NCBI GenBank assembly: GCA_903857795.1
Contig: CAIOGM010000061.1
Location: forward strand, 1-64,000
DNA from: an uncultured Geobacter sp.
Lineage (GTDB): Bacteria; Desulfobacterota; Desulfuromonadia; Geobacterales; CAIOGM01
DNA: 64,000 bases
Reading direction: 5' to 3'
Numbering within the stretch: the first letter of the stretch is position 1; each line of letters begins with the position of its first letter. The translations under genes were made by a program, and so were the position numbers. This document shows, piece by piece, positions 25,892 through 42,729 of the stretch. The notes beneath the pieces are model-generated. The model did no database searches, was not told the DNA's origin, and saw only the letters and a program-made list of their open reading frames with translations.

Positions 25892-27004
25892 TTACTTTGT
25901 TTGGGTCGCTGAAGTTACAATGACCGCGGTAACCGGTTTATTGTCCGTTGCGGAAACAGGGACAACTTCGATTGTCTTTACGACATCAAACCCCTGGATG
26001 ACACTCCCGAAGACAGCATATCCGCCGGAGGAGCTGTTGAGGTTGATATTGTTAGCCGTATTGAAAAAGAATTGAGCCGTTGCCGAACTGAAATCGGTTG
26101 TTCTGGCCATGGCAATTGTTCCTTGCGTGTTGCTGAGTCCCGTTGTGGAGGACTGCTCCAGTTCGATGGCAAGATGCGGAACTTTTTGAATCCCGTCGAT
26201 GCCGAAGCCGCCCCCCTGGACCACAAAGCCAGAAATCACGCGATGAAAAATCGTATTGCCGTAGAATCCCTCGTTCACATAGCGGAGGAAATTGTTGACG
26301 GTTATGGGTGCTTTCGCCGGATAAAGCTCCACAACAATCGTCCCCATGCTGGTGACGACTGTTACCTGGGGACACGGCACGGTAAACGGCGCCTGTTGCA
26401 GGACTGTTCCCCTCGATGATGCCGAAATAGTCACGACTCCTGATGTAGTCGGTGTACATGAAAAGATGCGTGTTGATGATGTCCCGCCTGCCAGCTCTGT
26501 CAGTCTGTTGCATGCTCCGGATGCCGTCATGGTGGCGCCTTCCAGATCAGTGCCGATGACGTTGAAATTGCTCGGTTTTGAATAGATAAGCAAGGACGAG
26601 GTGATTGACGTTACCGCTGGGGAGAGGCAGAAGGGAGGCATCTGTGCGCCACCGGCGCGTACTGTATCACATATTCCTGTCAGTGTGAGCAGGCTGCTTC
26701 CCGCCGCCCCCTGGGGACCCAGCGGCAGGGTCAGGTTCAGAACCTGATTGGGCGCCGCTCCCGTAATGCTTGCCCCTGCCGTTATCCCGGAAGTTACCGA
26801 ACCTATCGCCATGGTAGTGGCGGGTCCCGCCGGTCCTTGCAGCTGAGCCTTGCTTTGAACGCTGCCATCGGAGAAAACAAGGTCACCCCCATCCCTGATG
26901 CTCAGGTCTCCGCTCACAATGGTTACGGCTCTAACCTCTCCGGAAAAAAAGAGAACCGTGATCATGCCGACGTACAGAATGGAACGTATCCAGTTCATTG
27001 CCAC
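25892..27004 (-). CDS. Secreted cyclophilin-type peptidyl-prolyl isomerase with N-terminal collagen-like extension
   Basis: Signal peptide; 'GPAGPA', 'LGPQGAAGSS'; 'FHRVISGFVVQGGGF', 'GTIAMARTTDFSSATAQFFFN'. Confidence 0.85.
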   Translation of the reverse strand: MAMNWIRSILYVGMITVLFFSGEVRAVTIVSGDLSIRDGGDLVFSDGSVQSKAQLQGPAGPATTMAIGSVTSGITAGASITGAAPNQVLNLTLPLGPQGAAGSSLLTLTGICDTVRAGGAQMPPFCLSPAVTSITSSLLIYSKPSNFNVIGTDLEGATMTASGACNRLTELAGGTSSTRIFSCTPTTSGVVTISASSRGTVLQQAPFTVPCPQVTVVTSMGTIVVELYPAKAPITVNNFLRYVNEGFYGNTIFHRVISGFVVQGGGFGIDGIQKVPHLAIELEQSSTTGLSNTQGTIAMARTTDFSSATAQFFFNTANNINLNSSSGGYAVFGSVIQGFDVVKTIEVVPVSATDNKPVTAVIVTSATQTK

Positions 27005-27054: not shown

Positions 27055-27390
27055 CTACAAAGCTTGGTGGGCGGGAACTGTTTCCGGAAAGTCCATCGTG
27101 TTTGGTGCGTTGACCGATTCGGCGTCAAATTCTTCCTCGTCCAGGTAAGGCGCTCCCCTTCGCCCGAAGAGCGCGATGATTTTGCCGGATAGAAGCCCCG
27201 TGATCCCGGCAAGGAGGAGCGTCACCAGAATCCCGGTCAACTGAGCGCCGCCGTTAATTTCCTTTGCCACGAAAAGCGCCGTCACGCCGCCGAATATGCC
27301 GGGAAGACCGTGGAGGTAGAGGACGCCGCAGGTGTCGACTTTTCCGGATAGATCGGTGAGTTTCCCCTGGATGACGCAGATGGCGATGAT
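27055..27390 (-). pseudogene. C-terminal fragment of an Amt/Rh-type ammonium transporter
   Basis: 'KVDTCGVLYLHGLPGIFGGVTALFVAKEINGGAQLTGILVTLLLAGITGLLSGKIIALFGRRGAPYLDEEEFD'. Confidence 0.65.
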
Positions 27391-27399
27391 CCTCAGGGC

Positions 27400-27555
27400 C
27401 GCCCGACGGAGGTGATATTGGAGGTGGACGGCTTCATGATGACTTGAAACTGGTAATGGTGCTGGAGCCGGGGCGATTGCAGAGGGTTGCTGGATGACGC
27501 ATCCCTGCTGCGTCCAGTATCCCTGAAGGGAAAGAATAAGGTCCTGAAAGGTCAA
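27400..27555 (-). pseudogene. glyQ: glyQ (glycyl-tRNA synthetase alpha) remnant with internal deletion and frameshift
   Basis: '(M)TFQDLILSLQGYWTQQGCVIQQP' then, in another frame, 'LQHHYQFQVIMKPSTSNI'. Confidence 0.75.
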
Positions 27556-27710
27556 CGGGTGATCCTTCTGTCGCGAGAACAGCTATAATGAGGAGCGAAT
27601 ATACAAAAGAGACGGTGTAATTGCAAGGAGTTCGGCGCTTGGCGGGTAGAATTGGAGAAGGCGGCGTTGGCTATTCTGAAAGAGCGTTACGCCAGCACGA
27701 TGAGTCGTAG

Positions 27711-28073: not shown

Positions 28074-29261
28074 GTGAATAGCCTAATCCTCAAGGCCTGC
28101 AGAAAATTGATGCCAGCTGTTCTCATTTTTTATATGTTTGTATACTCCTCCGAGGCTCTAGCTTTAGAATGTGCCGAAGTATCCAACAGTTATAATGACA
28201 AAATCAGGCAGTATCTGTTCAGGGACGCACTTGATATTCTCTCTAAGTGCCAGGAAGAATGTCCGAAGTCACAGAAGGATTTTTGTGGTTTTCAGACAAT
28301 TGCAATCAAGGCAACCATACGAAATTACATCGGGATTCAGATTAAATCAGCACGCGACAACGCTGATATCAATGACGGAATAGCCTTGCGCGCATATCAA
28401 CGTGCCGTAGAGGCAGGCTCTTCCATCTCCTTCGAGGGTAATAGCCGTGACGAAATAAATGAAGCAAGGAAAGGGGTGGCTTCCCTGCAGGAAAAAATAA
28501 ACCTGCAGGTAGCCTCTCTTGCCACAGAGGCGGAGCAGGCAATCGATGAACTCAGATTCGATAAGGCGCGAGATTTGATCTTCGAGATCTATTCCCTTGA
28601 TAACGGCAGCGCCGACGCACAAAAGCTGTCGGCGCTTGCAGTGGATCGACTTGAAGATTACATGGAGAATAATAGTCGTGAAATAGACCAGCTATTGAAG
28701 AGTCTCGACACCACCGTTAACCGAGCAGTTTCCGAGAAGTCACCTCAGCGAAAAAAGAAATTGAAGCAGGAAATAGATCTCTATGCACAAAAAATTGATT
28801 CAAAGGTTAAAATATCACTTCTCCTGAAACCGGGAGATCAGAGGATTGTCAGCCTCTATTCCAATATGACAAGTGTTAGCAACCGATCCAGGAAAAACGG
28901 GGTCACCGTATCATTCGATGTTCCCGATTCCGATCAATTAGAGACCCCGACGGTCAAACTACAGGCAGCAATAGCTTCCGTTAACAAGGGGCGGTACCAA
29001 GAGACGATCAGCACCCTGAAATACTTTCGTTCTGGAGCACAATTCGACATAGAACTGCTGTCTCAGGCCTATATATATGAGGGCATTGCTTGGGCTGCAC
29101 AGATAAACGAAAGCACCGCCAACGCCCCAAAGGATCGGCTCTTGCGACTTAACGCCAAAAAGGCGTTTAAGAGTGCACTCTCCCTCAACGCACACATTCA
29201 ACTGCCGAGGGGATACAGTAAATACAATCCCATTCTCGAGGAAACTCGTCACTTGGGTTGA
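28074..29261 (+). CDS. Secreted helical repeat (TPR-like) protein, first gene of the signalling/glycan island
   Basis: GTG start, signal peptide (VLIFYMFVYSSEALA), helical repeats. Confidence 0.7.
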   Translation: MNSLILKACRKLMPAVLIFYMFVYSSEALALECAEVSNSYNDKIRQYLFRDALDILSKCQEECPKSQKDFCGFQTIAIKATIRNYIGIQIKSARDNADINDGIALRAYQRAVEAGSSISFEGNSRDEINEARKGVASLQEKINLQVASLATEAEQAIDELRFDKARDLIFEIYSLDNGSADAQKLSALAVDRLEDYMENNSREIDQLLKSLDTTVNRAVSEKSPQRKKKLKQEIDLYAQKIDSKVKISLLLKPGDQRIVSLYSNMTSVSNRSRKNGVTVSFDVPDSDQLETPTVKLQAAIASVNKGRYQETISTLKYFRSGAQFDIELLSQAYIYEGIAWAAQINESTANAPKDRLLRLNAKKAFKSALSLNAHIQLPRGYSKYNPILEETRHLG

Positions 29262-29287
29262 TCTTCAAATAAACTGGAGGGAATATC

Positions 29288-30442
29288 ATGAGAAAGACTC
29301 TGTTAGACAATGCTCTACGTTGTTTGCCATTATTCCTGCTGTTTCTTGTATCTCTGGGGTGTGCCCATCAACAAAAAAATGTCGACATTACTGTCGAGGC
29401 GGTACGGGCTGGCAGCTTGAATGCCGATTTGGAATCAGCATACAACCTGATCTCCACCATAAAAAGCGCTGACAATATCATTATCATCTATGATGCCTCA
29501 GGCAGCATGAACTGGCCTACAAATCCGGGAGGAGAACCGCGATACAAGAACGCTCACAAATCACTGTCCAAGTACTTGGAACGGATGCGAAAGGCCGATA
29601 ATGTGGGTCTTATAGTGTACGGCAGTCACTTCCCATCGGGGATATTCGGTGGAAAAATAAACAACATGGATGCCGCAATAAAATCATGCACGGAAGATAT
29701 TGCCGTTACCGTCCCCTTTGCGGCATTCAATCCGCAGGCTTTTCAGTCAGAACTGAAGAGGCTCGATCAAAGCAGGGCGTACCGGGGAGACACACCTATC
29801 GGTAATTCCATACGTAAAGCTACCGAAATTCTCAAGATGGTGAAGGGAGAAAGAAAGCGAATCGTCCTGATCACAGATGGGACAGAGGAGTGCTACAGCA
29901 AGGACCGTGCAAAGAGTGTTTCCGGTGCATTATCTCCTGAAGATGCGGTAAGGACGGCTATGGCTTCTGGCATCACTGTCAGTATCGTAGGCTATGGGGT
30001 CGGGCGTGGCAAGGATGGCAACGCGGTAGTCAATCCTGAACAGGCATTGCACAGCTTAAAAAATCTCGCCACCGGCGCCTTTGTGGGTGCCAATACAGGG
30101 GATGAATTAATCAGGGCACTGATGCAGATAGAGGTCGAAAATTTCCAATTTGACCTACTGGATATGAACAAAGAAATTATCGGAACACTCCGCATAGGCC
30201 AAACAGCGCACCTTGACTTCACTCGGTACAATACCGTGATGAATGGTCTCCTTACCAAAATGGATGTCAGCGGTATGAAACCCAAAAAATTAAAGTTCAC
30301 CTTGCGTGCTGCTGGTGAAAGAATTTTTGAGAAGGATATTGGGATACCCATAGAATCCGAAGATGTCAGGATTTACCTCGGCCTTAAATCACCTTCAGAT
30401 AACGATCCGGATATCGCACCAGACAGCCTGAAATGGGAATAG
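29288..30442 (+). CDS. VWA-domain lipoprotein
   Basis: Lipobox 'LFLVSLGCAH'; MIDAS 'IIIIYDASGSMNW', 'GDTPIGNSI', 'VLITDGTEEC'. Confidence 0.9.
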   Translation: MRKTLLDNALRCLPLFLLFLVSLGCAHQQKNVDITVEAVRAGSLNADLESAYNLISTIKSADNIIIIYDASGSMNWPTNPGGEPRYKNAHKSLSKYLERMRKADNVGLIVYGSHFPSGIFGGKINNMDAAIKSCTEDIAVTVPFAAFNPQAFQSELKRLDQSRAYRGDTPIGNSIRKATEILKMVKGERKRIVLITDGTEECYSKDRAKSVSGALSPEDAVRTAMASGITVSIVGYGVGRGKDGNAVVNPEQALHSLKNLATGAFVGANTGDELIRALMQIEVENFQFDLLDMNKEIIGTLRIGQTAHLDFTRYNTVMNGLLTKMDVSGMKPKKLKFTLRAAGERIFEKDIGIPIESEDVRIYLGLKSPSDNDPDIAPDSLKWE

Positions 30443-30451
30443 CAGAGTTCA

Positions 30452-31984
30452 ATGGCCATAGATCCTGAAGCAACACAATTTATCCCTGCCGAGCAGGGGG
30501 AAGTGGTTTCGACCCGTGGTTTTCAGATCATCAGGTTGCTCTCTGAACAGGGAGGTACTTCTGATGTTTTTGAAGCATACCAACCATCACTTGCCAGAAA
30601 AGTTGTGGCGAAAAAGATAAAAGCCAAACTTCTCGACGACCGTGTCATGAAAGAGCGGTTTCAGGAAGAGGCATATTATCTGGCGAGACTGAGTCACCCC
30701 AACATAGTACAGATTATCGACTACAGCAGAGATGACCTGATTCTGTTTCTGGAGTACGTTGATGGACGCACGCTCACTGAGGTGTTGCGCAGTGAGGGGA
30801 AACTCCCCTTGGAGAAGATCCTGAAAATCGTTTCCCAGACGCTCCAGGGGCTCCAATTCGTTCATGATAAAAATGTTATTCATGGAGACATCAAGCCTGG
30901 CAATGTTTTTCTGACTAAGGAGGGTGATGTCAAGATAGCCGATTTTGGAATCGCTCGGATCATAGGTCGCAATACTACTGTATCCCGCCAAGCAGAGAAC
31001 AATCTCTGGATCGGTACCCCCGCATATATGTCACCCGAGCATTTTACCTCAGGAGAAATTGATGCTCGTTCGGACATCTACGCTGTAGGGGTTATGCTCT
31101 ACCGTATGCTTGTGGGACGTCCACCTTTCAATGATGAAAATACAACCAAGATAGCCATGATGCATATGCATGACTTCCCCACCTTTCCTGATGATTTCGC
31201 GATGGATATGCCTGTGGAGTTACGCCGGATCACATTGAAAGCTTTGTCTAAATCACCTGATGAGAGGTATCAGAGCTCGCAGGAATTTAAAAATGAAATA
31301 GACTCCCTCCTCTATCCCCGTGGTGGGGCAAAATACCTGCTGGAAGCGACCGAAGAGCTGAAAAAGGCAAAGGGGCAGAGGTTTATACTAAAGAAGAAAG
31401 CTCTTCTTGCGAACGCACAAAAACTGAGTCAGCTGGCCATCAGGGAAGAGCCTGACTCGGCATCGGCGCGCCAGTTGATGACAGAGGTGGACGGTCACCT
31501 GCGAAAAGCGAATAAAAAACTGACTTTCGTAGCGATCATCGTAGCTCTGGCGCTGCTCCTCATGATTATGGCATCGGTTAGAATTTCACTGAAAGGTTTT
31601 GGAACACTTGATGTTATTACCAATGAACCTGCAGATGTTTACCTGAACGGCCAGAAGATCGGGACAGCCCCGTTCGTCTTTACCAATATTCCCACCGGAG
31701 AACAATCGTTCTTTGTAGAACAGCCTGGATTTTACCGCTCACCAGAGAGTAGGATACAAGTTGAAAAGGGGAAGGTGCGGAATGTTGAAATAGCTATACC
31801 TGCTGGTGGGACTGTCTCGATAACCTCTGATTCTTCCGCGACATCAGTCATAATTGATGGCACAAACAAGGGGCAGACCCCACTCACGATAAAACTGCCA
31901 GTCGGAGTTCACTCCATCCAGGTGGGTAAAGCACGTAGTGAGGTTGCCGTTGTAGAAAATGCCCGGATTGCAGTCTCGTTCTGA
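30452..31984 (+). CDS. Ser/Thr protein kinase, TM helix, periplasmic PEGA repeats
   Basis: 'HGDIKPGNVFL', 'KIADFGIAR', 'GTPAYMSPEHF'; TM at ~358-380; 'GTLDVITNEPADVYLNGQKIGTAPF' PEGA. Confidence 0.93.
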   Translation: MAIDPEATQFIPAEQGEVVSTRGFQIIRLLSEQGGTSDVFEAYQPSLARKVVAKKIKAKLLDDRVMKERFQEEAYYLARLSHPNIVQIIDYSRDDLILFLEYVDGRTLTEVLRSEGKLPLEKILKIVSQTLQGLQFVHDKNVIHGDIKPGNVFLTKEGDVKIADFGIARIIGRNTTVSRQAENNLWIGTPAYMSPEHFTSGEIDARSDIYAVGVMLYRMLVGRPPFNDENTTKIAMMHMHDFPTFPDDFAMDMPVELRRITLKALSKSPDERYQSSQEFKNEIDSLLYPRGGAKYLLEATEELKKAKGQRFILKKKALLANAQKLSQLAIREEPDSASARQLMTEVDGHLRKANKKLTFVAIIVALALLLMIMASVRISLKGFGTLDVITNEPADVYLNGQKIGTAPFVFTNIPTGEQSFFVEQPGFYRSPESRIQVEKGKVRNVEIAIPAGGTVSITSDSSATSVIIDGTNKGQTPLTIKLPVGVHSIQVGKARSEVAVVENARIAVSF

Positions 31985-32023
31985 TGTTCTGTAGGTGCAC
32001 AGGTGGTTACAGAACTACAATAA

Positions 32024-32434
32024 TTGTCGCCGGATTCATACAACTTCAGCAGCGAACTTGGCTTGAGCAATTACCGACTCGGTGTCATCTATGACGCGGC
32101 GACCACAAACGTGAGCACACCAGACACAATTCATTACGCTGCAAAAGCAATGAAAATAGCGCTGCCGAGCTGCGTGTCGGCGCGTTCCATCGAAGCTATC
32201 TTTGCTATCGCAACTGTTCGTATCAACGAAAATCGAGGATTCAGACTGCTCATCGATATGTCGGCGGTTAATCAAATAGAGCAAGACGGCTTAACTCGAT
32301 TGTACGATCTGACTCAGTTGGCCAAGAGTCGCGGCGCACAGAAAATAATCATACGGAGTCCCAACCGAGTGGTGCTAGACGCACTGATTTTATCAAACAC
32401 ACTAAACTTATTCGAGCTACGGGAAGATGCTTAA
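32024..32434 (+). CDS. STAS-domain protein (anti-sigma factor antagonist-like); start uncertain
   Basis: 'FRLLIDMSAVNQIEQDGLTRLYDLTQLAKSRGAQKIIIRSPNRVVLDALILSNTLNLFEL'. Confidence 0.65.
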   Translation: MSPDSYNFSSELGLSNYRLGVIYDAATTNVSTPDTIHYAAKAMKIALPSCVSARSIEAIFAIATVRINENRGFRLLIDMSAVNQIEQDGLTRLYDLTQLAKSRGAQKIIIRSPNRVVLDALILSNTLNLFELREDA

Positions 32435-34553
32435 AACAAACGTATTGCCATATGCCATCCTGATTATGCTTTTAACCCCACAACTATCATGGCAGGCCCA
32501 GCAGCAGTCGCAGAAGGAAAAGAGTACGTTGAAAGTGGTACGGTCAAATGACACTCTGTATAGTTTGTGTTTGAAACAATACGGAGCTTACAACGAAAGT
32601 ATCTCCCGGCAAGTATTGTCGGCAAACCATTGGATAACAAATCCCAACAAATTACTACGTGGCCACCGGATCAAGTTCCCACGTCTGCGCAAAGACTCCA
32701 CGCTAACCACGCATATTGTCAAGGATAACGAGTCCATCCGTAACGTAACGTCATTACACGAGGGCAAGCCTTCGACCGCAGGCAGAGTTGAGTTTCACGG
32801 AGAAGCCACTATAGTGTCTGCTGCCCCTGTTCAGACCATGACAGACAAACTACCGGCACACAGTAATGTGACCGGGAATGTCACTCCGAAGTATGAAAAG
32901 TATCCCCGTCGACTAACCGGTAAAATTACTGAGTTAACATGGTTATCTGACAATTGTGCAGAGGTCAAAGGTGATGTCACGAGGCAACCTGGTGACGACG
33001 GGTCGTATAAATTTATCGTCTCCGTTGATGGTGACTTGGATTATGAGCAGTCATTTAAAATGGAACCTGACGGTAAATTTACAGCCACTGCTACCATAGG
33101 CAGATTGAATCAGGATTATGATCGAAATTATGTCCTGAAGGTAGTCAAGGTTTACGATGAAACAAACCTGGATCAGATAGCTGTGCTGGTGACAAAAAAA
33201 ATAAATAACAAAAATAAAACCATAATATTCAATGATGCTAACGACATTAACTTGACAGATCACAGAGGAATCGATAAATGGGTAAACGACCAGAGTGTCA
33301 AGAGTAGCCTCGTTGACAACGGCAAGTTCAAGATCCAAAACGGTTTGGTTGTCAAAAATTATCGATTTATTAACTTCAGCCCTGATGAAAAATACCTTGG
33401 CAGGTATGGTCGAGTAACGCTGTACGGTAGTTCGTGCATTTCAAAGTATCTCATACTAAAAGGACAGACCGAGAAAGCCAAACAAATCATTGATGTCTGG
33501 TGCAATCTCGTCGATGAAAAGGGCGGAATTCCCCGTAGTGCTAACGTCGTTGGAGATACGTATATCTCTCCCGATGTGAGAACCGGTGATATGGCGTATT
33601 TTCTTGGCGCACTAGCGCTGTACAAGGCGGCTACGGCCTCTACTGAGTATGATGAACTCATAAAACAGCTCATCAATAAGTATTTCTTGCCGCTTCAAGA
33701 TCAGAAAACCGGTCTGGTAAAGGGGGGCTACAGCACGGGAAGTGATGGTTATACCGTATCAGGTACAACCAGTTATGTCTCATGGGCGTCATCAGAGCAT
33801 AATTTTGACCTTTTTCAGTCTCTCGTCCTTTTAAGCAAACTTTTCAGCGGTGAGGATCAGCGGAGCATTGCATCGTTTTATCAGAGAATCGGTGAGGGTC
33901 TCGATAACTACATGTGGGACAAGGAAGCCGGCACCTTCAACCGGGGATATCGATTTAGTGCTGGAGAAGATCGGGCCAGGGCGCTTGATTGCTCATCGTG
34001 GGGCGCATTGTACCTGTTGAAACAGGCAGCTCTCAAAGTCGATGCCAATGATTTTGGTGGAGAACATTTTTATATGAGACGTGCCGCCACGGCGCTCAAC
34101 TTCATAGAGGCAAACTACACGGCACAATGGTGCTATGAACTCCCTGATGGAACGCAGGGATGCGTACAAGGTTACAAGCCATATGCCGGCAAGATAGATG
34201 ATGTTCAGGATGAGGTGTCACATACTCCCATCGATTGGGACAAAATACCGAACATGGTTTGGTCCGAGGGAACGTTGGGGGTGGCTATCGCCCAGTATCA
34301 GATGTGGTGCCGTAAACCATCAGGAATGGATCGTGAAAACTGTGCTAAATTCTACGATCTAGTGGATCAGATGGTAGAGCTGCAATCGCTCGGCCAGTCC
34401 GGAGGTCTGCTATATTCCAGTAAAAGGATCGAAGGACATTTTACACAGGGTGAAGAACTCGCATCGCTGGCATGGCTTGGCTCCGCGTTGGTAATAAAGG
34501 GGCGTGAGTACCCCCCGAGTATCCTCAAATACCAAAAATGGATACCGTGGTAA
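32427..34553 (+). CDS. Secreted LysM protein with C-terminal alpha-toroid (glycosidase-like) domain
   Basis: Signal peptide; LysM 'LKVVRSNDTLYSLCLKQYGAYN...HRIKFP'; long helical domain 'SWGALYLLKQAALK' resembling six-hairpin glycosidases. Confidence 0.65.
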   Translation: MLKTNVLPYAILIMLLTPQLSWQAQQQSQKEKSTLKVVRSNDTLYSLCLKQYGAYNESISRQVLSANHWITNPNKLLRGHRIKFPRLRKDSTLTTHIVKDNESIRNVTSLHEGKPSTAGRVEFHGEATIVSAAPVQTMTDKLPAHSNVTGNVTPKYEKYPRRLTGKITELTWLSDNCAEVKGDVTRQPGDDGSYKFIVSVDGDLDYEQSFKMEPDGKFTATATIGRLNQDYDRNYVLKVVKVYDETNLDQIAVLVTKKINNKNKTIIFNDANDINLTDHRGIDKWVNDQSVKSSLVDNGKFKIQNGLVVKNYRFINFSPDEKYLGRYGRVTLYGSSCISKYLILKGQTEKAKQIIDVWCNLVDEKGGIPRSANVVGDTYISPDVRTGDMAYFLGALALYKAATASTEYDELIKQLINKYFLPLQDQKTGLVKGGYSTGSDGYTVSGTTSYVSWASSEHNFDLFQSLVLLSKLFSGEDQRSIASFYQRIGEGLDNYMWDKEAGTFNRGYRFSAGEDRARALDCSSWGALYLLKQAALKVDANDFGGEHFYMRRAATALNFIEANYTAQWCYELPDGTQGCVQGYKPYAGKIDDVQDEVSHTPIDWDKIPNMVWSEGTLGVAIAQYQMWCRKPSGMDRENCAKFYDLVDQMVELQSLGQSGGLLYSSKRIEGHFTQGEELASLAWLGSALVIKGREYPPSILKYQKWIPW

Positions 34554-34712
34554 TCGGGCGCGTGCTTTCGACAACGGAGGCATGTTGAGTTCCAAACTGC
34601 ATTTTCCGATAAAGGAGGTGAACTGGTATAGCAGCGTGGCTGTCAAGGATTTTTCACGCCACCGCAGAGGGATTACTACGATTATTACTGCTATTAGACG
34701 AGGAGAGTCGAG

Positions 34713-35459
34713 ATGATGCAAAAACAAATTCGCGCAGTATTGATGCTGGCATGTGCTATGGGCGCTCTGTCCGCATGCACGACGGTTGTCCATGACACCC
34801 CCATCCAGAACACCACCAACGTATACCAGAGTGGACCCAAGGTTATTTTCAGCGACAACTTTGATCCTGCAAACGCCGAATTGCGGAACCTTTGGCAAAA
34901 CAACGGGAAAGGTGCATGGAAAGTACAGGGGCAAATCTCATCACTTCCTGGATGCGAAGATGGTTGCCTCAAGCAAAACAGTGAGGATCCCCGGGCACTT
35001 AATGCCATTGAGTATGTAACATCTCCTCAGATATCAGATGGAGCAATTGAAGCTCAGATGAGGTACAGCTATGAGTTGTCGGTGGCGGAGACCGCTGAGC
35101 AGCGTAATGAAAAGAAATCATTCATCGGCGCGGGAATCATATTTCGCATGGTCGATGTAAATAACTACTATATGTTCAGGTTGGCAGGCGAAGACGGTGT
35201 AGTTCTTGGGAAAATGGTCAACGGCAACTGGATTGATCTGGGTAACCCACGAAGAATAGATTTTCTTGACGGCGCCGGTAAATTACGCCCGAACTCCTGG
35301 TACAAGTTAAAAATTATTGCTCGCGGCACCAGCATCCAATGTTTCCTCAACGATAGTCCGGTCGTCAGCGCCTTTGATCCGACGTACACTGTCGGAAAGT
35401 TTGGTCTTGTTACGTTCAAAACCGCCGCTGACTTCGAGTATATAAACGTCACAGAGTAG
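34713..35459 (+). CDS. LamG/concanavalin-like lipoprotein
   Basis: 'MGALSACTT' lipobox; 'GAGIIFRMVDVNNYYMFRLAGEDG', 'WYKLKIIARG'. Confidence 0.75.
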   Translation: MMQKQIRAVLMLACAMGALSACTTVVHDTPIQNTTNVYQSGPKVIFSDNFDPANAELRNLWQNNGKGAWKVQGQISSLPGCEDGCLKQNSEDPRALNAIEYVTSPQISDGAIEAQMRYSYELSVAETAEQRNEKKSFIGAGIIFRMVDVNNYYMFRLAGEDGVVLGKMVNGNWIDLGNPRRIDFLDGAGKLRPNSWYKLKIIARGTSIQCFLNDSPVVSAFDPTYTVGKFGLVTFKTAADFEYINVTE

Positions 35460-35512
35460 ATTTGTGAAGACGACAGACATGAATTGTCTAGTTTAGGAGG
35501 TTTTATTATTTG

Positions 35513-35545
35513 ACCGGATGGCAATAATCGCCATCCGGTGCTTTT
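35513..35545 (+). terminator. Strong intra-island terminator
   Basis: ACCGGATGGC-AATAATC-GCCATCCGGT-GCTTTT, 10-bp perfect stem. Confidence 0.8.
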
Positions 35546-35648
35546 GTTCAGGGATAAATTAGCCTTCAGAAACAATGAAACAGGCGCCACCGCACGAAAA
35601 AGCTAAGAAGACAGCTGATAAGTAAACTGCCAAATATAAAGGATTTTT

Positions 35649-36632
35649 ATGAGTAGATCAACCAAGACAAGGTCTATCCAGGTTTTATGCCTGCTTTTGT
35701 CTCTCTGCCTCGGAACCACCATCACGGGTTACTGTGGAGCGCAGTCATTAGGTGTAAAAGAGCTTCTTACTAATGCCGGGAAATATAGTGAGCGACAGGT
35801 GCAGTTGCAGGGAAAGGTAGAGAGGTGGGTCGAACTGGTCTCCGGAGAAAAACTGGGATCATACATGCTGAAGGACAATTTTGGCGATGAAATCCAGGTG
35901 AAGACGATGGAAGCCATGCCACAGGTGGGAGACACTGTTGCGGTCACGGGACTCGTCATCTTTGACGGCAAGCAGAACGAGTATTACCTGCAATCCCTGA
36001 AAAGCAGTAGTGTTGTTCCACATGAAGTTGCGCGCGACGACACTAAAGGCGAAAATAAACCATCGATCTTCATGCTGTTAACCAGTAAAGCGAGCACGGC
36101 TAATGCTCTCCTCGGAGGGGTGGCGATTGCCGGAACGGTCCTCATTCTAATCGTCGTTATCGCCGTAAGGATGAAAAAGCGGAAAAATAGGGTACACGAA
36201 GTCCCCGATTTTTCCTTCGATGAAACTGAAACCATCCGAATTGACGTCGATGGCAAGCTCATGCAGTCGGAGATCGCCGATGAACGGACCGTAGTTTTGA
36301 TGCCGGGAAATCTCAATGTCACCAAGGGACCCAAGGAACTGGAAGCGGTGCAGTACCGTATCACCTCGGCTCTCACTAAGATAGGGCGCCAAGAGTCTGG
36401 CATCGACAAATCCAGCGGCTGGATCGTCTTACCTGCAAATTGCGCGACGATCAGCAGGCATCAGGCCGACTTGGTATTCAAGGACGGTGTTTATTACATC
36501 GAAAACAGATCCCAATCCAATATCACCCGGGTTAACGGTGTAATGGTACCCAACGGTATGGCCAACAAGCTGAACGATAAAGACATAATCTCTTTCGGTG
36601 AAATAGAACTTACCTATAGCGGCCCAACGTGA
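35649..36632 (+). CDS. Membrane protein: periplasmic OB-like domain, TM, cytoplasmic FHA domain
   Basis: Signal peptide; OB-like 'RQVQLQGKVERWVEL'; TM 'LLGGVAIAGTVLILIVVIAV'; FHA 'KIGRQ...CATISRHQADL...SQSNITRVNG'. Confidence 0.85.
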   Translation: MSRSTKTRSIQVLCLLLSLCLGTTITGYCGAQSLGVKELLTNAGKYSERQVQLQGKVERWVELVSGEKLGSYMLKDNFGDEIQVKTMEAMPQVGDTVAVTGLVIFDGKQNEYYLQSLKSSSVVPHEVARDDTKGENKPSIFMLLTSKASTANALLGGVAIAGTVLILIVVIAVRMKKRKNRVHEVPDFSFDETETIRIDVDGKLMQSEIADERTVVLMPGNLNVTKGPKELEAVQYRITSALTKIGRQESGIDKSSGWIVLPANCATISRHQADLVFKDGVYYIENRSQSNITRVNGVMVPNGMANKLNDKDIISFGEIELTYSGPT

Positions 36633-36711
36633 CCGGAAATATCAGCCGCGGGTCGTGCGTAGTATTACAAGGCGCTCGTTGTGCGTTAACACCAGAAGAC
36701 AGGAATACGAC

Positions 36712-38082
36712 ATGGAAGCACTGACCATACTGCTAACAGTTTTTTTCTGTTTTTATTACATTATAAATATCTGGCTAATCTTCAGAGCAATTCTTTCAAT
36801 GGAAAAAGAACTGTCACAACCACAAGGTAAAAATAGCGACTCATATCCTCACATCACTATCATAATACCAGCATACAATGAAGAACATGATATTGTACAA
36901 ACTGTCAGGACTATTCTACTGCAAAATTATCCTAATTTTGCAGTTTTGGTAGTAAACGACGGTTCTAATGACTCTACATTAAAAAAATTAGTAGCCGCAT
37001 ATGATCTAAAACCTGAATCAATGAGATACAAGGACTATATAAAAACCAAACCCGTCAAGGCACTGTATTACAATAAGAGTTACGACAAACTCAGGGTTAT
37101 TGACAAAGATAACGGCGGAAAGTCCGACGCCATAAACACAGGTCTCAATATTGCCACTGAAAGTGAGTATATCTGTGTCATTGACGCCGACGTTTGCCTT
37201 GAGAAAAACGCTTTGTACTATGTCGTGCAACCGATAGTGAACTGTCGCGCGGATAACGTAGTCGCCGCAGGTGGTAACATTCGTATAGGGATTGGAAGTG
37301 ACATCACCAATGGCACGGTGCACAACCTGGCGACTCCGGGAAGTCTGCTGATCCTCTTTCAGATATTGGAATATATTCGATCGTTTTCACTATTCAGGAT
37401 CGGCTGGAATGCCGCTAATGCGGTACCGCTCTTATCCGGGGCGTTTGGTGTCTTCAAAAGAGCGGACGTCATACACTCCGGCGGTTATCAGAAATTTTCC
37501 AAAGGAGAAGACATGGAGATGACACTCAGACTCCATGAGCGATATCTTAATAGAAAAGAGCAGTACAAAGTCGTGCAACTGGTGAGACCGCTCTGCTTTA
37601 CCGGAGCCCCTTCCAGCCTCAAGGAGTTGGCCGGTCAGCGAACCAGATGGCAGGTGGGGCTACTTTCCGGGCTCATGGTTTACCGTCATATGGTCGGCAG
37701 ACCCCGGTATGGGGTGCTGGGTATGGTGACGCTCCCCTATCTTCTGCTCTTCGAAGCCGCAAGCCCGTTTTTGGAGATCATCGGGTACCTCCTCATCATA
37801 TTGAATTTTTTTGTACTACATCACTCTCCGGCAGTTTTCTCATGGCTTATCGTGTCGATTATCGGCGGCTCCCTGTTCGTGAATCTGGCGGCACTTCTCA
37901 CTGAAGCGCTGGTGGTGAAACTCTACACACGACCGCTGGATCTTCTGAAGCTCCTGGTCGTCGGCCTGCTGGAACCGTTCGGATACCATCAACTGAACCA
38001 ATACTGGAAAATAAAGGCAACCTTCCAATATTATAGAAATATTCATCTCAAAAGCACCTGGCAACCTCCTAAACGCGATTGA
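36712..38082 (+). CDS. Processive family-2 glycosyltransferase (poly-GlcNAc/cellulose synthase-like)
   Basis: 'ITIIIPAYNEEHDIVQTV', 'VVNDGSNDST', 'VIDADV', 'GEDMEMTLRL', 'QRTRW', C-terminal TM helices. Confidence 0.93.
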   Translation: MEALTILLTVFFCFYYIINIWLIFRAILSMEKELSQPQGKNSDSYPHITIIIPAYNEEHDIVQTVRTILLQNYPNFAVLVVNDGSNDSTLKKLVAAYDLKPESMRYKDYIKTKPVKALYYNKSYDKLRVIDKDNGGKSDAINTGLNIATESEYICVIDADVCLEKNALYYVVQPIVNCRADNVVAAGGNIRIGIGSDITNGTVHNLATPGSLLILFQILEYIRSFSLFRIGWNAANAVPLLSGAFGVFKRADVIHSGGYQKFSKGEDMEMTLRLHERYLNRKEQYKVVQLVRPLCFTGAPSSLKELAGQRTRWQVGLLSGLMVYRHMVGRPRYGVLGMVTLPYLLLFEAASPFLEIIGYLLIILNFFVLHHSPAVFSWLIVSIIGGSLFVNLAALLTEALVVKLYTRPLDLLKLLVVGLLEPFGYHQLNQYWKIKATFQYYRNIHLKSTWQPPKRD

Positions 38083-38157
38083 ACAACCACCTGTCACCAT
38101 TTCCGAAATAGGAGTCGTCATGCCCCTCCCCCACACTCTACGGCGGGATAGTGAACC

Positions 38158-38892
38158 ATGATAACGTTCATTTCATCATCGGCCACTGAAGTCGGACTCA
38201 AGAGAACGAACAACGAAGACGCCTTCCTCGATCTTCCTCAACAGGGTCTTTTTGCCGTATCAGACGGAATGGGAGGCGCCGCAGCCGGAGAGATAGCCAG
38301 CAAAATATTCATTGAAACCGTCTCCGAGTTTTTCCCGCCAAGCCGGGAAAAGATGGGGGGTGAGGATTATGAAACGGTACAAAATGTGTTCGGCGTCTCG
38401 AACCAAAAAATAATCAATTATGGTTCCGAAAACTCCGACTGTTCAGGCATGGGGTGTACGGCAGATCTCCTGGTCTTTTCCGGTGAGCGATTCATCGTCG
38501 GCCATATCGGTGACAGCAGAATTTATCTGTTCAGAAAGGGAGAACTGCTCCAACTGACAAGAGATCACTCCTTCGTGCAGCAACAGGTTGATCAGGGAAT
38601 AATTTCTCCCCTGGAGGCGAGGAGTCATGCCAAGAGGAATGTCCTGTTGAGAGCATTAGGGACCACTGCGCCGCTCTCCTTCGACATCATGCGAGGCAAG
38701 AGTTACCCACGCGATCTTTTTCTCCTCTGCTCCGACGGTCTGACCGGCATGGTCGAGGATCCCCGGATAAAGTCAGTTCTCGCATCAGGAAAAGAGCTGC
38801 CTCAGAAGATCTCTCACCTCATGAAACTCGCCCATGACGGAGGCGGGAAAGACAATATCACCGTGATCCTGTGCCAGGTGGTGGCGTCATGA
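38158..38892 (+). CDS. PP2C-family Ser/Thr protein phosphatase
   Basis: 'SDGMGGAAAGEIAS', 'GHIGDSRIYLFR', 'CSDGLTGMV', 'GKDNITVILC'. Confidence 0.95.
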   Translation: MITFISSSATEVGLKRTNNEDAFLDLPQQGLFAVSDGMGGAAAGEIASKIFIETVSEFFPPSREKMGGEDYETVQNVFGVSNQKIINYGSENSDCSGMGCTADLLVFSGERFIVGHIGDSRIYLFRKGELLQLTRDHSFVQQQVDQGIISPLEARSHAKRNVLLRALGTTAPLSFDIMRGKSYPRDLFLLCSDGLTGMVEDPRIKSVLASGKELPQKISHLMKLAHDGGGKDNITVILCQVVAS

Positions 38893-39099: not shown

Positions 39100-42000
39100 C
39101 TACGCCAGTACGATGAGCAGCTCTTCCTTCTCCACCTTATCCCCTTCCTTGAACTTTACCTCGGCGATGACTCCGTCTTCTTTGGCCTTGATATTGGTCT
39201 CCATCTTCATCGCCTCGGTGACCATGAGGACGTCGCCCCCCTTGATGGCATCCCCGGCCTTGACGTTGACCTTGAGCACCTTGCCCGGCATGGGAGCACC
39301 CAGATGCTTGGGATTCCCCTTCTCGGCCTTCTCCCGCTCTTTTTCATCGGTGGTCGCCGACTGGTCGCGGACGGTTACGGAACGAGCATTGCCGTTGAGC
39401 TCGAAATAGACCAGCCGGGTTCCGTCGGACTGGACCCGTCCGATGGCGTTCAGCTTGATGATGAGGGTCTTGCCCGCCTCGATATCCAGGGAGGTCTCCT
39501 GCCCCGGCTCCAGGCCGTAGAAGAAGATCGGTGTCGGGATGACGGAGGTGTCGGAAAACTCCTGGCGGTGCCGGTCGAATTCGGGGAAGACATGGGGGTA
39601 GAGGATGGCCGAGATGAGGGCCTTGTCGTCCACCTTGTGCCCCACCTTCTCCTCCAGTTTTTCCCGTTCCAGTTCGAAATCCACCGGCTCCAGCAGCTCG
39701 CCGGGACGGCAGGTAATCGGCTGCTCCCCTTTCAGGATGATCTTCTGCAGTTCCTCGGGCCACCCCTGGTACGGTTGCCCCAGCATTCCCTTGAACATCC
39801 CCACCACCGACTCGGGGAAGGCCAGCTCTTCTCCCTTGCTGGTGAAGAGCTCTTCCGGTTGCAGATTGTTCTTGACCAGGAACATGGCCATGTCTCCCAC
39901 GACCTTGGATGATGGGGTGACCTTGACGATGTCGCCGAAGAGGAGGTTCACCTTGTGGTACATCTCCTTGCACTCTTCCCATCGGTCCAGGAGGCCAAGG
40001 CCGGCCACCTGTGGCTTGTAGTTGGAGTACTGGCCGCCGGGGATCTCATGGTGGTAGACCTCGGCGGTGCCGGACTTGAGCCCCGATTCGAAGGGGGAGT
40101 AGTAGTCACGCACCGTCTCCCAGTAGTTGGCAAGGGACTGGAGCCCGGCTGCGTTGACCTGCGGATCCCGCTCCGTCCTTTCAAGCGCCGCCACCAGGGC
40201 GTTCATGTTAGGTTGGGCCGTGAGCCCCGATAGGGAGGAGAGGGCCGCGTCCACGATATCCACCCCGGCTTCGGCAGCTTTCATGAGCATGGCGCTGCCG
40301 TTGGATGAGGTGTCGTGGGTGTGGAGGTGCACCGGGATGCCGATGTTCTCCTTGAGCGCCTTGACAAGCTTGAAGGCCGCCTGGGGTTTGAGCAGGCCAG
40401 CCATATCCTTGATGGCCAGGATATGCGCACCCATCTTCTCCAGCTCCTTGGCCATGTTCACGTAGTACTCCAGCGGGTACTTGTCCCGCCGGGGGTCGGT
40501 GATGTCACCGGTATAGCAGATGGCGGCCTCGCAGACCTTGCCGCTCTTTCTGACCGCATCCATGGCCACGGTCATCCCCTTGGTCCAGTTGAGGGAGTCG
40601 AAGATCCGGAAGATGTCGATCCCCGAGTTGGCCGCCTCCTCCACGAACTTCTCCACCACGTTGTCCGGGTAGTTGGTGTACCCCACGGCGTTACTTCCCC
40701 TGAGCAGCATCTGGAAGAGGATGTTGGGGATGGCCTCGGAGAGCTTGTGGAGCCGCTGCCAGGGGTCTTCCTTGAGGAAGCGCATGGAGACGTCGAAGGT
40801 GGCCCCCCCCCACATCTCCAGGGAGAAGAGCTCCGAGGCCAGATAAGAGGTCGGCTCGGCGATCTTGAGGAGGTCGTAGGTCCTGACCCGGGTGGCCAGG
40901 TTGGACTGGTGGGCGTCCCGCATGGTGGTGTCGGTCAGGAGGAGCTTCTTCTGCTCCAGGATCCACTTGGAGAGCCCCTCCGCACCGAGCATCATGAGGA
41001 GGTCGCGGCTGCCTGCCGGCCGTGGCCTGCTGCTGTCGATCTCAGGGACGCGGGCCTCGATCAGCTCCGCCGACTTGAGGGGGCGGGGCGCGCCGGCGGA
41101 GCCGTTGACGATGACATCACCGAGGAACTTCAACACCTTGGTGGCCCGGTCCTTCTTCTCGCGGAACTGGAGCAGCTCCTGATGTTTGTCGATGAACGAG
41201 GTGTCGCACTTACCGTTGAGGAAGACCGGGTGGGTGATGACGTTCTCCAGGAAGCCGATGTTGGTCTTGACGCCGCGGATCCGGAACTCCTGGAGGGCGC
41301 GGTGCATGATATGGGCCGCCCCCTGAAAGGTCAGTCCCCAGGCGCTGATCTTCACCAGGAGCGAGTCGTAGTGGGGGGTAATCTTGGCGCCGGTAAAGGC
41401 GTTCCCCGCATCGAGACGGACCCCGAAACCGGCGGCAGAGCGGTAGGTGGTGAGGGTGCCGAAGTCCGGCGCAAAGTTGTTGGCGGGGTCTTCGGTGGTG
41501 ACCCGGCACTGGATGGAGTAACCGCGGATGTCTATGGCGCTCTGGGAGGGAATGTTGATCTCCGGATCGGAGAGTTTATGCCCCTGGGCTACGAGGATCT
41601 GGTCCTGCACCAGGTTCCGTCCGGTGATCATCTCGGTGACGGTATGCTCCACCTGGATCCGGGGGTTCATCTCAATGAAGTACCACTCTCCCTCCTTGTC
41701 CAAGAGGAACTCCACGGTGCCGGCGTTGCGGTACTTTACCTGGCCCGCGATCTTGAGGGCCGCGCCGCAGAGCTCTTCCCGCTGGAGCTGGCTCAGGGAG
41801 AGGGAGGGGGCGAACTCCACCACCTTCTGGTGCCGGCGCTGGATGGAGCAGTCCCGCTCGTAAAAATGGACCAGGTTGCCGTGGTTGTCCCCCAGGATCT
41901 GGACCTCGATATGCTTGGGATTCTCCAGGTAGCGCTCCAGAAAGACCGCCGCGTTACCGAAGGCCGCCTTGGCTTCGCTCCCGGCGGCCACCAGCCCCTC

Positions 42001-42549
42001 CAGCAGCTCCTTCTTGTTCTGGGCCACCCGCATGCCGCGGCCGCCGCCGCCGGCCGCCGCCTTGACGATGATGGGGTAGCCGTGCTCCTTGGCGAAGATG
42101 AGGGCATCCTCTTCCTTTTCGATGGGCTCCTCGGTGCCGGGGACGGTGCGGACTCCGGCGATTGTGGCCACCTTGCGGGCCGCAACCTTGTCTCCCAGTG
42201 CCCGCTGCATCTCGGCGGTGGGGCCGATGAAGACGATGCCGGCCGCCTCGCACTTCTCGGCGAACTCGGCGTTCTCCGAGAGGAAGCCGTAGCCGGGGTG
42301 GATGGCGTCCACATCGGCCTTTAAGGCCAGGGCGATGATCTCTTCGATCCCCAGGTAGGCGTCAATGGGGGATTTCCCTTTGCCGATGAGGTATGCCTCG
42401 TCCGCCTTGTAGCGGTGGAGCGACAGTTTGTCTTCTTCCGAGTAGATGGCCACCGTGCTGATCCCCAACTCGGTGCAGGCGCGGAAGATCCTGATGGCGA
42501 TCTCTCCCCGGTTGGCGGCCATGACCTTCCTGAATTCCCGGTGTTTCAT
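39100..42549 (-). CDS. pyc: Pyruvate carboxylase
   Basis: Biotin carboxylase, carboxyltransferase and biotinyl ('VTEAMKMETN') domains; start MKHREFRKVMAANRGEIAIR. Confidence 0.97.
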   Translation of the reverse strand: MKHREFRKVMAANRGEIAIRIFRACTELGISTVAIYSEEDKLSLHRYKADEAYLIGKGKSPIDAYLGIEEIIALALKADVDAIHPGYGFLSENAEFAEKCEAAGIVFIGPTAEMQRALGDKVAARKVATIAGVRTVPGTEEPIEKEEDALIFAKEHGYPIIVKAAAGGGGRGMRVAQNKKELLEGLVAAGSEAKAAFGNAAVFLERYLENPKHIEVQILGDNHGNLVHFYERDCSIQRRHQKVVEFAPSLSLSQLQREELCGAALKIAGQVKYRNAGTVEFLLDKEGEWYFIEMNPRIQVEHTVTEMITGRNLVQDQILVAQGHKLSDPEINIPSQSAIDIRGYSIQCRVTTEDPANNFAPDFGTLTTYRSAAGFGVRLDAGNAFTGAKITPHYDSLLVKISAWGLTFQGAAHIMHRALQEFRIRGVKTNIGFLENVITHPVFLNGKCDTSFIDKHQELLQFREKKDRATKVLKFLGDVIVNGSAGAPRPLKSAELIEARVPEIDSSRPRPAGSRDLLMMLGAEGLSKWILEQKKLLLTDTTMRDAHQSNLATRVRTYDLLKIAEPTSYLASELFSLEMWGGATFDVSMRFLKEDPWQRLHKLSEAIPNILFQMLLRGSNAVGYTNYPDNVVEKFVEEAANSGIDIFRIFDSLNWTKGMTVAMDAVRKSGKVCEAAICYTGDITDPRRDKYPLEYYVNMAKELEKMGAHILAIKDMAGLLKPQAAFKLVKALKENIGIPVHLHTHDTSSNGSAMLMKAAEAGVDIVDAALSSLSGLTAQPNMNALVAALERTERDPQVNAAGLQSLANYWETVRDYYSPFESGLKSGTAEVYHHEIPGGQYSNYKPQVAGLGLLDRWEECKEMYHKVNLLFGDIVKVTPSSKVVGDMAMFLVKNNLQPEELFTSKGEELAFPESVVGMFKGMLGQPYQGWPEELQKIILKGEQPITCRPGELLEPVDFELEREKLEEKVGHKVDDKALISAILYPHVFPEFDRHRQEFSDTSVIPTPIFFYGLEPGQETSLDIEAGKTLIIKLNAIGRVQSDGTRLVYFELNGNARSVTVRDQSATTDEKEREKAEKGNPKHLGAPMPGKVLKVNVKAGDAIKGGDVLMVTEAMKMETNIKAKEDGVIAEVKFKEGDKVEKEELLIVLA

Positions 42550-42729
42550 CGTGTGCCTCCTCTTTTTATGGGCTGAATAAAACAATTACATTCTGCGTAA
42601 ATTTATGTATGATGCCAAAAAAATAGAGCAAATACTGATGATTAAGGCATCGCTTTACTGGCGGCCATAAGAACAGAATATGGGTATGCTGTCAATAGTA
42701 AATATTTGTTATACTGTATAGAACGGTGA

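Follow-up and report, generated by a model that had tools for sequence, protein, structure and literature searches.

The question raised by this locus is whether nine adjacent genes in an uncultured Geobacter sp. make up one system in which Ser/Thr phosphorylation controls a surface polysaccharide. They occupy positions 28,074 to 38,892 of the window, i.e., of the whole stretch of 64,000 nucleotides that was analysed. The original prediction described them as a trans-envelope phospho-signalling island built around a GT2 polysaccharide synthase. The data reviewed below suggest that the island is probably a real, undescribed way to control surface polysaccharide. We regard it as an even chance that the island encodes a trans-envelope Ser/Thr phospho-signalling system, complete in itself, that is coupled to a module for surface polysaccharide. 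In the literature library searched, no paper describes this gene combination, and there was no published match.

All nine predicted plus-strand ORFs (P1 to P9) were recovered, with intergenic gaps in gene order of 26, 9, 39, −8, 159, 189, 22, and 75 bp. Domain calls come from Pfam/NCBIfam profile searches, and topology from hydropathy and sequence motifs. P1 (28074..29261) is a secreted helical protein of no family, with a signal-like N-terminus read from the sequence. It has no Pfam, NCBIfam, or PHROG match, and no library supports the TPR-like label given to it before. P2 (29288..30442) is a VWA-domain lipoprotein (VWA_2, 2.2e-11) with the lipobox LGC. P3 (30452..31984) is a Ser/Thr protein kinase (Pkinase, 1.2e-50) followed by a transmembrane segment (358-376) and two PEGA repeats (4.4e-16). 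P4 (32024..32434) is a STAS-domain protein. P5 (32427..34553) is secreted and joins LysM to an (alpha/alpha)6 toroid, and P6 (34713..35459) is a LamG/3-keto-disaccharide-hydrolase-like lipoprotein (PF06439; lipobox LSAC); both are conserved markers of the module. P7 (35649..36632) has a signal peptide, a periplasmic domain, one transmembrane segment (155-173), and a cytoplasmic FHA domain (2.2e-9). P8 (36655..38082) is a PgaC-like membrane GT2 synthase (Pfam GT2, 3e-23), and P9 (38158..38892) is a Stp1-type PP2C phosphatase. The signal peptides, the lipoboxes, and the two transmembrane segments agree with the topologies proposed originally, and the island genes include neither a T6SS nor a Ter component, as had been stated. 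The OB domain once assigned to P7 rests on a look at the sequence and is supported by no library. A terminator-like hairpin on the plus strand between P6 and P7 (35513..35539) may divide the set into two transcripts, P1-P6 vs. P7-P9.

Conservation elsewhere was an expectation that was borne out for the core of the set. Of the 396 genomes sampled from the phylum, just two have full-length P5 and strong P6: the window genome (G000) and Deltaproteobacteria bacterium ZodW_Metabat.137 (G329, locus L014). No P5 was found in 140 other genomes of the order, and its weak matches in other genomes of the class are to LysM only. A GTDB profile scan with two peptide patterns found two loci, in G329 and in Pseudomonadota bacterium CSMAG_2014 (G528; locus L013). 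G533 is this same genome, as its contig number and coordinates coincide with those of L013. Since only two patterns were used, the true distribution of the module may be wider. The contig scan with P5 alone and the scan of viral contigs gave no match. On plasmids there was no DNA match and none for P7, and P5 and P6 had single matches only, at about 25% identity. G329 and G528 are both MAGs and share one genus in another class of the window's phylum. P5 is 39-45% identical to its L014/L013 counterparts, and P6, distributed as narrowly as P5, is 48-51% identical to those in L005/L013.

In both relatives the core is collinear: STPK-TM-PEGA, LysM-(alpha/alpha)6, LamG-like lipoprotein, FHA/STAS, and PP2C. 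L013 reads DUF4384, OmpA, caspase, STPK-TM-PEGA, LysM-toroid, lipoprotein, LamG lipoprotein, FHA, STAS-FHA, FHA, PP2C, GT2, the GT2 adjoining PP2C; the window reads STPK, STAS, LysM-toroid, LamG, FHA, GT2, PP2C. The TPR, VWA, and OB-type fusion genes are not kept in the relatives, whose loci have caspase/WD40, OmpA, and DUF4384 proteins in those positions. G329 repeats this core, accompanied by WD40-caspase proteins; no GT2 of the P8 family is detectable in it. Because the G329 core stands without a GT2, the constant centre of the system, as read from these gene orders, is the phospho-set together with the two envelope glycan proteins P5 and P6, not the GT2. The expression "built around a GT2" was thus too strong. 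Secreted caspase-domain (and WD40-caspase) proteins lie directly upstream of the core in both relatives (L013, 4583-6670; L005, 5831-10691). A large surface protein with Lcl_C/PKD/MopE motifs adjoins the module in both as well, on opposite sides (L013, 2-2722, minus strand; L009, 592-3462).

The GT2 itself belongs to a well-populated family. P8 carries the processive-GT2 set D, DxD, (T/G)ED, QxxRW as NDGS, DADV, GED, and QRTRW, and its hydropathy shows N-terminal and C-terminal groups of transmembrane segments; its true start is likely the ATG at 36712. Against TIGR03937 it scores 119.6 bits (1.6e-34), under the equivalog cut-off of 422.3. Relatives were found in 20 other genomes of the 396 from the phylum (34-39% identity, E 1e-65 to 1e-99). 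Several of the loci inspected combine the GT2 with a HEAT-TM protein, a PgaB-like deacetylase (TIGR03938, 7.8e-40), and a TPR/PgaA-like protein as its neighbours. Plasmid relatives from other phyla have HEAT and YaiO or TPR neighbours, with response regulators in some. The family is one of widespread PgaC-like GT2s whose usual partners are HEAT, a deacetylase, and a PgaA/YaiO-type exporter. Neither the window island nor the surroundings of the L013 GT2 contain any of these partners. The island has no exporter, as had been noted at the outset, and no precursor-synthesis gene. In a 30-sequence tree that includes E. coli PgaC, the window and G528 GT2s are sisters (97/97), so the synthase appears to have travelled with the module. 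Given the long branches of the tree, this is good evidence for joint inheritance of GT2 and module, though short of final. Six other loci (L061, L062, L065, L070, L074, L075), from several genomes of the phylum, share a recurring operon of HEAT-TM protein, GT2, a TPR protein of about 800 aa, PgaB-like deacetylase, and TPR/PgaA-like protein, apparently a PNAG-like locus.

The two envelope markers were named correctly in outline, and their domain labels hold in part through their homologues. P5 itself has no Pfam match: its LysM lies below threshold in the window protein, and both homologues reach or exceed the Pfam cut-off. For P6, 3keto-disac_hyd falls just below the cut-off and rises above it in the homologue. 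A first model of P5 had a pLDDT of 52; its C-terminal toroid, modelled with its two homologues, reached a mean pLDDT of 66 and a pTM of 0.78. The fold search with this toroid returned many (alpha/alpha)6 matches, mostly sugar-active (GlcNAc 2-epimerases, GH76, GH105, GH94, rhamnosidases), with PDB TM-scores near 0.5. The predicted (alpha/alpha)6 toroid fold of the C-terminal part is supported, without an assignable enzyme class. Its invariant acidic residues are E457, D461, D591, D592, E614, E676, and E677. A PDB sequence search with P5 gave essentially LysM relatives only. Phages, too, encode distant sequence relatives of the toroid, with PHROG matches of the tail-fibre type. Uncharacterised proteins of this kind (L031, L032, L033; ~25% identity) come from giant E. 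coli phage ph0011, Thermus phage TMA, and a Coprococcus phage.

With a G329 core that lacks the GT2, the polysaccharide-control reading has its chief rival in control of wall or glycan processing. The phospho-set would regulate remodelling of the wall or envelope through the LysM-toroid and LamG proteins, in a PknB/Stk1-like role, and the GT2 would be an optional downstream enzyme. Two points suit this explanation: LysM and PEGA are peptidoglycan-associated, and conservation is highest in P5 and P6. It is harder to reconcile with the joint inheritance of GT2 and core in two classes, or with structural matches of the toroid that are mostly glycan- or sugar-active enzymes. We consider it unlikely, at perhaps one chance in four.

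The kinase motifs HGDIKPGN and DFG are present in P3, which scores 292.8 bits against the PASTA-kinase model NF033483 (cut-off 450) and has PEGA in place of PASTA. P9 passes the Stp1 equivalog cut-off (NF033484, 235.5 bits vs. 230), with complete PP2C motifs. P3 is the sole Pkinase match in the window genome (4.05 Mb), and the FHA domain of P7 is the sole FHA domain there. In G329 the locus kinase is likewise the only Pkinase match above the cut-off, and all three FHA domains of G329, as well as those of G533, are inside their module loci. The STAS match of P4 is weak alone (0.019), and it is the STAS-FHA fusions in homologous loci, such as L013, that uphold this label. Since STAS is fused to FHA in relatives and separate in the window, a functional STAS-FHA link is supported. 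Two residues call for care. The conserved His of the P7 FHA domain is read as Gln, and the usual phosphoserine position of P4 reads EQDG, with the phosphoserine missing; both leave some details of the readout uncertain. A congener contains a different cluster of FHA, PP2C, VWA-FHA, FHA-zinc-ribbon, and two STPK genes, without a GT2 or LysM-toroid (G003:C343, L030, 7569-16636).

The nine genes are a true genomic island of horizontal origin, spanning 27.7-39.1 kb. As predicted, the block is AT-richer than its surroundings: GC is 0.44-0.51 at 28-39 kb and mostly 0.53-0.69 in the flanks. On the right it is bordered by the 3' end of a pyruvate carboxylase gene (39100..42585, minus strand), whose orthologues in three congeners are 92-93% identical. 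On the left, a 28-bp stretch (27677..27704, minus strand) that encodes ..LIVLA-stop is identical to L029:3005-3032, a pyruvate carboxylase fragment in the congener G003. Because of this match, the nine genes are seen to sit between a remnant of the carboxylase end and the intact carboxylase end. The island is missing at the equivalent site of all three congeners. In G001 and G002 the site is empty: the left flank (homologous up to window ~25,865) lies ~90 and 45 bp, respectively, from the carboxylase 3' end (window 39,102), so the 25.9-39.1 kb stretch is absent there. In G003 two pyruvate carboxylase 3' fragments enclose type I restriction-modification and other genes at this site. As judged from these differently filled sites, the 3' end of pyruvate carboxylase has repeatedly been a target of insertion and counts as a hot spot. 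A binning artefact is ruled out by the conserved flanks on this same contig. No integrase was seen among the island genes, and an Rfam search of the window gave no match.

Several further features were observed around this site. In G003 (C287, L029, 3000-19900) the hot spot holds type I RM, DNA methyltransferase, Vsr-like, and large ATPase genes, and the two bounding carboxylase 3' fragments are ~85% identical to the intact gene. Left of the island in the window, a chimeric ORF (27055-27555, minus strand) that joins the first 24 glyQ codons to a C-terminal part of an ammonium transporter is a gene-fragment scar. Next to it lies a gene for a secreted cyclophilin whose N-terminal stretch is collagen-like (Gly-x-x; 25892-27004, minus strand); it is missing at the congener sites too.

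The company kept at this hot spot raises another explanation, namely that the island is a cassette for response to phages or competitors, in which kinase, PP2C, and VWA are joined to an arm that alters the envelope or capsule, and that it is retained at a hot spot for defence genes. The G003 insertion site carries type I RM and other defence genes, caspase/WD40 proteins adjoin the kinase in relatives, and the kinase has matches in PADLOC. Moreover, kinase-PP2C-VWA linkage has been described in other, conflict systems (PMC7159879). However, the window island has no effector, nuclease, or toxin-like domain, and the other eight proteins have no PADLOC match. This explanation appears improbable to us. 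The kinase matches in PADLOC were rejected: they are to generic models only, with no multi-gene match to a described system. Least probable, and in our estimate a one-in-ten matter, is a chance collection of AT-rich hot-spot passengers with separate functions, which would suit the 159- and 189-bp gaps, one of them with the terminator-like hairpin, and the TPR, VWA, and OB-type fusion genes not conserved elsewhere, but not a core that is collinear in a second class of this phylum, the GT2 sister grouping, or the single-copy kinase and FHA both lying within the island.

The genomic island, the core collinear in another class, and the sister GT2s together indicate that the set was inherited as a single unit; the original claim of one unit holds in this respect, and the hairpin leaves room for two transcripts. 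The following scheme may be proposed for a phospho-signalling system that controls surface polysaccharide. The periplasmic PEGA part of the kinase would sense the state of the wall or glycan, perhaps together with the VWA lipoprotein, the LamG lipoprotein, and, bound to peptidoglycan, the LysM-toroid protein. The kinase would then phosphorylate a cytoplasmic target, which may be the GT2 tail, STAS, or the linker of the FHA protein. The FHA protein would bind phosphothreonine at the membrane beside the GT2 and turn it on or off, and PP2C would reset the switch. Outside, P5 might trim, modify, or anchor the polymer on peptidoglycan, and P6 would bind it. The signal, substrates, and glycan in this scheme are all things that we infer, and so is the idea that the synthase is controlled in this way and in place of c-di-GMP/PilZ.

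In favour of the coupled system are the collinear core, the P5/P6 identity, the sister GT2s, the private kinase and FHA, the borders, the intact motifs, and the toroid matches. Against it are G329 without a GT2, the hairpin, the lack of exporter and precursor genes in the island, the FHA/STAS residues, and the fact that the other carriers are MAGs. We find the two sides to weigh about the same. The full version, a new class of glycan synthase control in which a private, horizontally mobile STPK-PEGA/FHA/STAS/PP2C circuit reads the envelope and switches a PgaC-like synthase via phosphothreonine-FHA docking, a LysM-anchored (alpha/alpha)6 protein processes the polymer, and neither c-di-GMP/PilZ nor two-component control takes part, is more tentative, and we place it somewhat short of an even chance. 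If true, an accessory polysaccharide synthase of a Gram-negative lineage would be tied directly to Hanks-type Ser/Thr phosphorylation. The widespread HEAT/PgaC-like GT2 family would also have come under a different signalling chemistry and have been transferred as an island. With the only such kinase and the only such reader of the genome in one locus, an unusually clean test system would be at hand.

Comparison with known systems places the locus among several described arrangements. T6SS PpkA/PppA/Fha1 and the TerY-P triads share with it the composition of kinase, PP2C, and FHA/VWA, but the island has no T6SS or Ter gene, its FHA protein is not TagH (P7 scores 28 bits against TIGR03354, cut-off 120), and its VWA protein is a secreted lipoprotein. 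The PgaABCD/IcaADBC PNAG systems likewise have a PgaC-type GT2 with processive motifs and a periplasmic glycan-active protein in the locus. Unlike them, the island lacks the PgaA exporter, the PgaB/IcaB deacetylase, PgaD, and a HEAT partner; its control genes are STPK/FHA/PP2C, and its periplasmic protein is a LysM-(alpha/alpha)6 toroid. The HEAT-GT2-YaiO/TPR-barrel loci are widespread; this analysis encountered them elsewhere in the phylum as well as in records from alphaproteobacteria, Deinococcus, Legionella, Bacteroides, and haloarchaea. They have a GT2 of the same family (31-39% identity for most, 28.7% for Legionella), and in some of them regulators adjoin (response regulators, Hpt). In the island the HEAT protein and barrel are missing, and Ser/Thr phospho-signalling replaces the two-component regulators. 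PASTA-kinase/FHA wall control (mycobacterial PknB-PstP-FhaA-MviN; StkP/PrkC) differs in having PASTA instead of PEGA; in the island, FHA is part of a single-pass membrane protein, the genes form a mobile accessory island, and the target would be an exopolysaccharide-type GT2. Both have a membrane kinase with a wall-associated extracytoplasmic part, a Stp-type PP2C, and an FHA reader near a glycan-building membrane protein, and the mycobacterial PknB-FhaA-MviN arrangement is the nearest functional precedent. In general, the locus reads as a PgaC-like synthase locus re-wired to Ser/Thr phospho-signalling.
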